Origin: Pedosphaera sp.
Lineage (GTDB): Bacteria; Verrucomicrobiota; Verrucomicrobiia; Limisphaerales; Pedosphaeraceae
Length of the DNA stretch: 55,002 nt
Direction of reading: 5' to 3'
Assembly (NCBI GenBank): GCA_028293285.1
Contig: JAQGPC010000280.1
Coordinates: 1-55,002, forward strand
Shown: positions 25,053 to 27,503 of the stretch, piece after piece
How positions within the stretch are numbered: position 1 is the first letter of the stretch
Layout of the letters: each line of letters starts with the position of its first letter
Program-made: the position numbers and the translations under genes
Notes under the pieces: model-generated
Database searches by the model: none
What the model was told of the DNA's origin: nothing
What the model saw: the letters and a program-made list of their open reading frames with translations, nothing else

Positions 25053-25571
25053 TCAAAACCCCAAAAACAGAATGCTTTCAGTCCAGCGGCCACCATTGCG
25101 CCGAATTAATATTTGCAATCCCCCGCGTTTGCGCCCGCGGAATTGTAAATCAGTTATCCAATGCGCCGCTGCGGAAAGGCGACTGGAAAGGAACGCAAGC
25201 TTGTTCAGTTCCCGGCTGGAGACATCTTTGCGATACTGCTGCTTGCAATGGCGCATGAACTGGGTGGCGTCCCGGATTTCTTTGTCCGTCCCATCAGGCC
25301 AGTATTGCCGGCCATAATCCTGGAATCCCGGCCAGGCTTTTTCTCCCAATGCTGAGAGCGTGTCCGGAATAAGGTGAGCAATGGCATCATAGCGCTTCCG
25401 GAGCAGGACTTTTGCCTGGGCTTCCAAATCCGCAGCAGAAATGGCCAGCAGGGCAGGGCGATCAGCGGCTTGCACGCCCAAGCGTTCAATGATGTCTTCA
25501 GGCATTGCGGCAAAAGCATCCCGCAACTTGCCATCACGCAGCAATCGACCCAATGCCGTGACCAGATCCAT
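25053..25571 (-). CDS. Partner protein of the DUF692 enzyme (BufC/SCO6045-tail-like)
   Basis: A 172-aa soluble, helix-rich protein. It starts MDLVTALGRLLRDGKLRDAF, followed by AADLEAQAKVLLRKRYDAIAHLIPDTL. This 'short helical, then LLRKR' pattern resembles the small companion proteins encoded after DUF692 (MNIO) enzymes, which help bind the precursor peptide. The basic C-terminal part (RGRKRGGLQILIRR) is unusual. The gene overlaps the DUF692 gene by 38 bases, strong evidence that the two are made together. The family link is inferred and a profile search is needed. Confidence 0.55.
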   Translation of the reverse strand: MDLVTALGRLLRDGKLRDAFAAMPEDIIERLGVQAADRPALLAISAADLEAQAKVLLRKRYDAIAHLIPDTLSALGEKAWPGFQDYGRQYWPDGTDKEIRDATQFMRHCKQQYRKDVSSRELNKLAFLSSRLSAAAHWITDLQFRGRKRGGLQILIRRNGGRWTESILFLGF

Positions 25572-26352
25572 TTGTTTTAAAAATCTTTTTTAATTTCTCC
25601 AACTCCGCTGCCATGAGCGCCGGGTCGGGAAAATGTTCATCCCGTTCGAGGATGATCGCCTTCACCGGCGCGTATTCAATCACGGCACCGGCAAGCTCCA
25701 ACAATTCTGTTTGCACTTCCGTGGCATGACCGTCCAGGTAACGGCCATTCTCCATTGAATACCCCACAATATGTAATTGTGTAATCCTTCGCGGCTCCAG
25801 TTCATGCAGCCATTTCACTGGATCGAATCCATGATTGCGACTGTTGATGAAAAGATTCGTTACATCAACCAACAATCCGCAATCGGCCGCCTCACAAACA
25901 CTGTTCAAAAAATCTGTTTCCGACAATTCACCTTGAAGCCGAATATGGGAGGTGATGTTTTCCAGAATGATCGGTTTGCGGCATCGTTCCGAAACTTCCC
26001 GGGCGTGGTCAGCGATGACTTTGATAGATTCCCGGGTTGGCGCGATAGGGTTGAGATGTCCCAGATCCACTTCGGACGTTCGAGTGAAAGCGACATGTTC
26101 ACTGATCCAATCCGGATTGGCGAGGGCGCTGACCTTCGCAAAACTTTCGAGCCTGGATTTGTCGAGTGTTCCCGGCGTGCCCAGGCTCAAGCCGAGTCCA
26201 TGCACAAAGAGATGATAATTCTTCTTCAGCGTTGCCAACTTTTCCTCGCCGCCATCATAGAAGTGCTCCGCCGTAATCTCCAGGCACTCGAGTCCTGTAG
26301 GTCGAGATTCGATCCATTTTGCCAATGGCCTGCGATATCCAACTCCAATCAT
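25534..26352 (-). CDS. DUF692 / MNIO-family iron enzyme
   Basis: The protein has 272 aa from the ATG at 26352 (MIGVGYRRPLAKWIESRP), one base after the previous stop; the longer open frame to 26457 is only the antisense side of the Gly/Cys tail. The family signatures are clear: EITAEHFYD, FVHGLGLSLG (His51), SEHVAFTR (Glu85, His86), ILENITSHI (Glu131, Asn132), LVDVTNLFIN (Asp163, Asn166), QLHIVGYS (His194) and ILERDEHFPDP (Glu236). These are the multinuclear iron ligands of the MbnB/TglH/BufB group, which oxidatively modify cysteines (and a few other residues) in ribosomal peptides. The adjacent Cys-rich protein is the natural candidate substrate. Confidence 0.9.
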   Translation of the reverse strand: MIGVGYRRPLAKWIESRPTGLECLEITAEHFYDGGEEKLATLKKNYHLFVHGLGLSLGTPGTLDKSRLESFAKVSALANPDWISEHVAFTRTSEVDLGHLNPIAPTRESIKVIADHAREVSERCRKPIILENITSHIRLQGELSETDFLNSVCEAADCGLLVDVTNLFINSRNHGFDPVKWLHELEPRRITQLHIVGYSMENGRYLDGHATEVQTELLELAGAVIEYAPVKAIILERDEHFPDPALMAAELEKLKKIFKTNGSGHGIGSIAA

Positions 26353-26353
26353 A

Positions 26354-26782
26354 TCAACCTCCACACCCTCCGCAGCCCCCACCTCCACACCCGCCCCCGC
26401 CACATCCTCCTCCCCCACCGCAGCCGCTGCCACTGCTCGTGTTGGACCATCCGTCACCCATATTGTCGAAATGATTGGCTCTTAGAAGAAAGAGAATGGC
26501 TCCAACCACCATCATAATGAACATGAATTCCCAGCGATGCAGGCCATGCGCCGAACCGTCAAAGTATCGAATAACTCCCGGCACTTCAAAACCGATTATC
26601 CCACCAAGGGTTGTGAGTGGGGTATCAAATCCCTTGGAACGCAGGATGAGCAGCGTCACTCGCAACGCCAGAAACCAGAATAGGTAGCAGGCGAGAAACT
26701 CTTCACCATGCATGGTGTGGAAGAAGTCAAAAAGACTTCCGTCTGCCGCACCTAACACCGCACCTGCTGGATTGGGGTTCAT
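26354..26782 (-). CDS. Small membrane protein with five-cysteine Gly tail (candidate MNIO substrate)
   Basis: A 142-aa protein with two to three membrane segments (residues about 29-47, possibly 55-70, and 86-101). Its last 27 residues are almost only Gly, Ser and Cys, with Cys at 121, 127, 132, 137 and 140 separated by Gly runs. The layout (FLACYLFWFLAL near the start, C-terminal CGGGG repeats) recalls the TIGR04222-type membrane proteins, an assignment made from memory. It lies 10 bases after the nucleotidyltransferase gene and one base before the DUF692 gene. The tail is the obvious place for cysteine modification or metal binding. That function is inferred, not shown. Confidence 0.8.
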   Translation of the reverse strand: MNPNPAGAVLGAADGSLFDFFHTMHGEEFLACYLFWFLALRVTLLILRSKGFDTPLTTLGGIIGFEVPGVIRYFDGSAHGLHRWEFMFIMMVVGAILFLLRANHFDNMGDGWSNTSSGSGCGGGGGCGGGGCGGGGCGGCGG

Positions 26783-26792
26783 AGGTTTTAGT

Positions 26793-27503
26793 TTAAGCTG
26801 GCCATTGTTTTTCCATGAACATGAGCGCCTGATCCACTGCTGGAAACACTCGTTGATGCCACGAAACTATCTCCTTATCCGAAAGCTTTCCGGGATTCCT
26901 TTTATGTGCAAGCAAGTCAGTCAAGAGCCCGGAATCCAATCCCAATTCCCTGGCCAACACGGGAACCCGTTCTTCCATTTCCTTCGGCACCTCCTTGCCG
27001 CTGAGCCGCAGCAATTCGGAAAGGCGAAGGAACAATGGCGTGACCGATTTTGCCAGGAACATCGAGTAATTGGTTGATTGTTTGCGAGTGATGAAGGCGT
27101 GGGCCAGCCGGAGTCGCAGGTTGCGCAAGGTTTGTTCGCAGAGGAACCGCTCCAATTCCGGGTCCACCCGCACATCCTTCAACGGATCGGCTCCATGAAG
27201 CACTTTGTAATTACGTTGAATGCTCAGGAATTTGGGGGCAAAGGCCCGGACACTTCGGGCGAAACCGCGCTTGCCCAATACGAAGGGGTCAATTTGCCGG
27301 TCGCTGCCGATCACGTTGCTGATGGCTTCGTGTGCTGCGGGAGTGGATTCATTAAGGACGATCAGGAGATTGATATCGGAAACACCTTCGACGGCGTCGC
27401 CTCTCACCGCGCTGCCATATAAACAGCAGGAATAGAGGTTTTCTCCCAAGGTTTCCTTCAATGCTTTCACCGCCTGTTCCAGAGTTGATTGAAGTTTGCT
27501 CAT
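26793..27503 (-). CDS. Nucleotidyltransferase-fold protein, degenerate second Asp
   Basis: A 236-aa protein with the pol-beta/MNT nucleotidyltransferase signature LYGSAVRGDAVEGVSDINLLIVL. The usual D-x-D metal pair is D-x-N here (SDIN), so catalysis may be weak or the protein may bind nucleotides only. The C-terminal half (residues about 125-230) is helical, as in antitoxin/kanamycin-type members. A candidate ribosome-binding site (aaggtg) precedes the ATG. It is the first gene of the four-gene DUF692 operon, with 10 bases to the next gene. Its part in that system is unknown. Confidence 0.75.
   Translation of the reverse strand: MSKLQSTLEQAVKALKETLGENLYSCCLYGSAVRGDAVEGVSDINLLIVLNESTPAAHEAISNVIGSDRQIDPFVLGKRGFARSVRAFAPKFLSIQRNYKVLHGADPLKDVRVDPELERFLCEQTLRNLRLRLAHAFITRKQSTNYSMFLAKSVTPLFLRLSELLRLSGKEVPKEMEERVPVLARELGLDSGLLTDLLAHKRNPGKLSDKEIVSWHQRVFPAVDQALMFMEKQWPA

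Follow-up and report, generated by a model that had tools for sequence, protein, structure and literature searches.

A compact MNIO operon of Pedosphaera with a membrane-tethered Cys/Gly tail as its putative substrate

What does an MNIO (DUF692) enzyme act on when its gene lies next to that of a membrane protein ending in a Cys-rich tail, and what is a nucleotidyltransferase-like gene doing beside them? The question is raised by positions 25,053-27,503 of contig JAQGPC010000280.1 (GCA_028293285.1, Pedosphaera sp., Verrucomicrobiota), part of a 55,002-nt stretch analysed as a whole and called the window here. Among named sequences, the close matches of the host come from a Pedosphaera MAG and from an uncultured bacterium of subdivision 3.

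Four genes of one operon

An initial annotation had described a four-gene minus-strand operon, and its spans (27503-25053), its gaps of 10 and 1 bases and its overlap of 38 bases, shared by the MNIO and PART genes, were all confirmed. The genes and the features within them are as follows.

26793..27503, minus strand: NT, a 236-aa nucleotidyltransferase-fold protein, predicted catalytically inactive (PF01909, AF2 fold, alignment)
26354..26782, minus strand: MEM, a 142-aa membrane protein, trimmed TIGR04222-like, with a Cys/Gly tail; putative MNIO substrate (orthologues in L034, L047, L048 and L033)
26642..26698, minus strand: first membrane helix of MEM, aa 29-47 (hydrophobicity calculation)
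26477..26533, minus strand: second membrane helix of MEM, aa 84-102 (hydrophobicity calculation)
26357..26437, minus strand: Gly/Ser/Cys tail of MEM, last 27 residues with 5 Cys, predicted modification site (codons; invariant Cys/Gly columns)
25534..26352, minus strand: MNIO (DUF692, PF05114) enzyme, 272 aa (PF05114 match, ATG start)
25053..25571, minus strand: PART, a 172-aa MNIO partner protein, PME-type 2 (AF2 fold match to TglI/NGO1945/MbnC)

In a comparison with two relatives, pN (0.17-0.39) was well below pS (0.72-0.84) for all four genes, indicating that NT, MEM, MNIO and PART are real genes under purifying selection. An alternative, longer MNIO frame begins at a GTG at 26457. Promoter and terminator scans of the operon gave nothing above chance, and no metal-related gene is found within it. 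A tryptophanyl-tRNA synthetase-like gene (window:27724-28698) runs divergently from NT; two relatives, L034 and L048, have the same neighbour, which points to vertical inheritance in the family.

The MNIO is a complete DUF692 enzyme, as had been proposed: it matches PF05114 over its full length (227 bits against a cut-off of 25, profile positions 2-261 of 263), and the His/Glu/Asp iron-site motifs are present when its alignment with TglH (8hci) and MbnB (7dz9) is read by eye. It is the sole PF05114 enzyme found in the host genome. The best NCBIfam model is BufB (NF050167), with 188 bits under a cut-off of 310, followed by HvfB, ApyH and MbnB; the scores against BufB and HvfB are far above those against ApyH, MbnB and ChrH. 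The short gene behind it had been taken for a partner, and the modelled structure agrees. PART has no family match above cut-off, and the missing PF09836 match indicates that it is not of PME-type 1 (DUF2063). Its AF2 model (pLDDT 94.3) finds its best PDB match in TglI (8hi7_A, Z 10.5 over 168 residues, i.e., nearly full length), with further matches to NGO1945 (3dee, Z 7.7) and MbnC (7dz9_C, Z 7.0); all three are known MNIO partners. By its predicted fold (that of TglI/NGO1945), together with the lack of a DUF2063 match and the position of its gene after the MNIO, PART is a PME-type 2 MNIO partner.

The Cys/Gly tail and its anchor

MEM ends in SSGSGCGGGGGCGGGGCGGGGCGGCGG, and the five Cys annotated in its last 27 residues were confirmed. 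The tail is encoded by mixed codons (GGA 6, GGC 5, GGG 5, GGT 3; TGT 3, TGC 2); the Gly and Cys third positions vary freely, indicating that the tail is kept as protein and not as a DNA repeat. Its Cys/Gly columns are invariant across five orthologues, the window copy being counted among the five. The protein had been annotated as two- or three-pass: the hydrophobicity calculation supports two helices rather than three. A three-helix topology, which would leave the tail in the cytoplasm, is less likely for the window protein, whose middle segment is too polar; L036, L047 and L033 have a less polar one, so that such a topology keeps some probability. Lys and Arg number 0 in the N-terminus, 4 in the loop and 0 on the C-terminal side of MEM, a distribution that favours an outward-facing tail. 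In relatives of other build, the long TIGR04222 forms have inner parts rich in K/R plus an extra weak C-terminal segment, and the TIGR04222 tail has been predicted to be extracytoplasmic (PMC12452194).

The 142-aa protein had been linked with TIGR04222 as a profile to check, and to the model itself it has no match. The TIGR04222 model gave no hit to MEM at E<=1 and none in a search of the host genome, and a family search with MEM gave no family match. By hhalign, the N-terminal GPxFLxxY region of MEM aligns with a profile built from TIGR04222 proteins (94%, 34 columns), so two TIGR04222-type features are seen in it, i.e., the N-terminal GPxFLxxY helix and the C-terminal Gly/Ser/Cys tail. Judged from its sequence, MEM resembles a TIGR04222 protein cut short, a truncated relative reduced to two membrane helices and the tail.

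The order NT-MEM-MNIO-PART recurs in four relatives (L034, L048 (=L032), L047 and L033). A fifth, L036, holds a decayed operon in which the NT frame is broken and the Cys tail and MNIO/PART are truncated. In the sixth, L035, NT is followed by a one-helix Cys-tail peptide, then by a lipoprotein, the MNIO and PART, and two of these features are its own.

L035:4893-5102, strand of the MNIO: one-helix Cys-tail peptide replacing MEM (about 60-70 aa)
L035:5299-5904, strand of the MNIO: lipoprotein-like gene before the MNIO

Please note that in the one-helix peptide the positive charges lie on the side of the tail, an argument for a tail within the cytoplasm in this locus. Five loci, L037-L040 and L050, combine a long TIGR04222 gene with an MNIO and a gene resembling a partner; NT precedes the TIGR04222 gene in L037, L039, L040 and L050, and L038 shows the arrangement without a recognisable NT. 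The two such loci tested scored 109 bits (L037) and 144 bits (L050) against the TIGR04222 cut-off of 43.

The MNIOs of the short and one-helix loci form one clade (100/100), and in every intact relative within it the tail gene lies upstream of the MNIO. The initial annotation had staked its reading on DUF692 genes keeping to this precursor: none with a different precursor was found in the close clade, whereas distant MNIOs of the same taxonomic order have other neighbours. Six loci of one genus (L041, L042, L044, L045, L046 and L049) have a second MNIO with a PME-type 2-like partner and without an adjacent TIGR04222 gene. A plasmid collection gave no matches when searched with the TIGR04222 and NT proteins; its MNIO matches were all below 60% identity and belonged mostly to other systems, and one actinobacterial locus in it has the order TIGR04222-MNIO-small gene without an annotated NT.

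Maturases and the product of the tail

If the tail is the substrate, what is made of it? In three genomes (G012, G119 and G182), the NT gene and a TIGR04222 Cys-tail gene are followed by a radical SAM/SPASM enzyme, and an MNIO search in the same three genomes found none. Two of these enzymes exceed the TIGR04082 (SbtM) cut-off of 350, with 511 bits in G012 and 484 bits in G119, in the enzyme part only (positions 196-516); those of G182 and of G035, where a tail protein and a radical SAM enzyme have no NT beside them, fall under it. In G489 a full-length SbtM follows a short Gly/Ser/Cys precursor (GSCGAGSCG...) with a weak TIGR04081 match, and the N-terminal part of this SbtM weakly matches DUF2063, an MNIO-partner domain (E 0.0074). 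At L149:1353-1760, ahead of a full-length SbtM gene, lies a short SbtA-like precursor that is GSCG-rich and contains a lipobox-like GATGC. Two other identities for the SbtM N-terminal domain were tried: likeness to NT was rejected, and likeness to PART was not significant by hhalign, leaving the weak DUF2063 match.

SbtM forms thiooxazole on Cys (PMC11002830), so the replacement of the MNIO by an SbtM-type enzyme beside the same NT and Cys-tail pair points to tail thiooxazoles, probably copper-binding. BufB and HvfB are likewise thiooxazole makers, and MNIOs with type-1 partners form 5-thiooxazole, with products that bind copper (PMC12668002); from this chemistry and the exchange we infer a thiooxazole for the MEM tail. 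The Cys/Gly tail had been proposed as the substrate from the window, and the proposal gains from its place upstream of the MNIO throughout the intact clade and from homologues that pair with a thiooxazole-type maturase where the MNIO is missing.

Our leaning, held at a little better than even, is toward a compact RiPP-like operon. The MNIO, an iron enzyme, would oxidise Cys residues of the C-terminal Gly/Ser/Cys tail of MEM in the cytoplasm, with PART as the partner holding the substrate. MEM would be a two-helix membrane anchor whose tail, once modified, probably faces outward at the inner membrane. Of the possible products 5-thiooxazole is the likeliest; it would make the tail a membrane-tethered site that may bind copper or another soft metal. 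NT, as a dead nucleotidyltransferase fold, would be a helper, probably one that binds the Gly-rich tail or the anchor, or accompanies either.

Several observations count against this reading: the partner is of type 2, which in characterised systems (TglHI, ApyHI) also goes with non-thiooxazole chemistry, the MNIO stays under the BufB cut-off, the radical SAM enzymes of G182 and G035 fall short of that for SbtM, and the operon has no metal-related gene. The tail could be the MNIO substrate with a different product (e.g., oxazolone/thioamide, beta-carbon excision or a cross-link) and a role other than copper, which we consider rather unlikely, if well worth keeping in mind. PME-type 2 partners accompany MNIOs of different chemistry, i.e., TglH, ApyH and biphenomycin-type enzymes (PMC12452194), and structurally PART matches TglI best; the preference of the MNIO for the BufB and HvfB models over ApyH, MbnB and ChrH, and the swap with an SbtM-type radical SAM enzyme, speak the other way.

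The tail might also carry no modification at all, serving as free thiols or structurally, with the MNIO acting elsewhere, e.g., on an unannotated peptide or on the L035 lipoprotein. It is common in the phylum for a Cys-tailed TIGR04222 protein to have no maturase neighbour, so that the tail may work unmodified. Five Verrucomicrobiae genomes with such proteins (G383, G395, G411, G514 and G385) were searched for an MNIO and none was found, and about a third of TIGR04222 genomes lack an MNIO (PMC12452194); a tail can thus be kept without one. GRDP-like fusions with a Cys tail, in the taxonomic order of the window, have no maturase neighbour either: nine loci (L134, L135, L136 and L138-L143) encode fusions of ~480-570 aa that join a PSxxVDQAWHLHLxYTxSYW domain, which to the eye looks like plant GRDP/DUF1399, to TIGR04222 and a Cys/Gly tail, with neither an MNIO nor a radical SAM gene beside them. 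Against an unmodified tail in the window stand the tight coupling of the four genes, with MEM directly upstream of the MNIO at a gap of 1 base, conserved in the clade, and the finding of no other candidate precursor common to the loci. For this operon we regard it as improbable.

The nucleotidyltransferase-like protein and known systems

NT matches PF01909 (25.6 bits, cut-off 21), and its AF2 model (pLDDT 91) matches AAD(9)/AadA along its whole length (Z 14.3 for 208 residues). It had been annotated as an added enzymatic step, and here the alignment disagrees. The GS...D-x-D motif reads SDIN, i.e., the second catalytic Asp is Asn and the metal-binding motif is incomplete. Elsewhere in the phylum, 17 of the 18 readable NT homologues show the same Asn, the exception being L161 with its Asp. 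The radical SAM loci have the Asn too, as do the MNIO loci other than L035, in which both Asp positions are changed and the second is Lys. The third acid varies (D/N/A/Q/E). With the second Asp lost nearly everywhere and the third acid variable, NT, on this sequence evidence, is probably catalytically dead, its likelier role being that of a binding-type helper. An active NT, AMPylating the membrane protein, the partner or a small molecule, would draw on the full ANT(9)/AadA fold, the first Asp kept in most members and the GS motif kept in the short type, and is quite improbable given the loss of the second Asp across MNIO, radical SAM and TPM contexts and the unsteady third acid.

What such a helper would handle is suggested by its neighbourhood. 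The NT family occurs in 28 of 388 genomes of the phylum and in 17 of 196 of the order, 13 of the latter having NT beside a Cys-tail membrane protein (one decayed). In 16 of the 19 phylum loci read, the gene that ends just ahead of NT encodes a protein with a Gly-rich tail, and all three such proteins tested are TPM-domain proteins (PF04536). Degenerate D-x-N nucleotidyltransferase genes lie right after genes of Gly-rich-tailed proteins in L150-L158 and L160-L166. The lost second Asp, together with this position after TPM-type proteins, makes NT probably a tail-handling pseudoenzyme, and its neighbours suggest that Gly-rich tails are what it handles. Tentatively, we extend the preferred reading to a wider scheme, possible though short of probable: either of two unrelated enzymes, an O2-using MNIO with its partner or an SbtM-type radical SAM enzyme, would turn one membrane-tethered Cys/Gly tail into thiooxazoles, sharing the inactive NT as a factor that binds the tail and that Gly-tailed TPM proteins use as well.

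The initial annotation guessed the type of system well, which the gene content and recurrence in relatives show to be real and conserved; its view that such a system had little or no description does not hold, since TIGR04222 Cys-tail membrane proteins were described in 2025 as probable MNIO substrates with PME-type 2 partners (Antoine et al. 2025, PMC12452194). The central idea is thus not new. The window shares with those systems the membrane anchor, the C-terminal Gly/Ser/Cys tail, the gene adjoining the MNIO and the PME-type 2 partner; it differs in that MEM lacks the central domain and a match to the TIGR04222 model, and in the added inactive NT gene, of which a text search found no mention in the main text of that paper. 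A literature search for TIGR04222 with nucleotidyltransferase or radical SAM gave no further paper.

Bufferins/captophorins (BufABC, HvfABC, FonABC) likewise combine an MNIO and a partner acting on Cys, and the MNIO of the window comes nearest to the BufB/HvfB models, but the substrate predicted here is a membrane-anchored tail instead of a secreted signal-peptide peptide, and the partner is of type 2 instead of DUF2063 type 1. SbtA/SbtM (TIGR04081/TIGR04082) offers a similar Gly/Ser/Cys-rich substrate, an SbtM-type enzyme taking the MNIO's place by the NT and Cys-tail pair in relatives, and the weakly DUF2063-like SbtM N-terminus, whereas SbtA is a short peptide and the window has an MNIO, not a radical SAM enzyme. 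NT has the full-length fold of ANT(3'')/ANT(9) (AadA, AAD(9); Z about 14), with D-x-N instead of D-x-D and a genomic context unrelated to resistance.

What appears new are the short and one-helix substrate forms missed by the TIGR04222 model, the pseudo-nucleotidyltransferase and the MNIO/SbtM exchange. These forms are very small membrane-anchored substrates for the bench, of 142 aa and, in L035, about 60-70 aa. The degenerate nucleotidyltransferase family that follows membrane proteins with Gly-rich tails receives a first context. The natural exchange of MNIO and SbtM-type enzymes beside the same substrate predicts 5-thiooxazole, and, if this is true, the cargo of TIGR04222 Cys tails would become directly testable.
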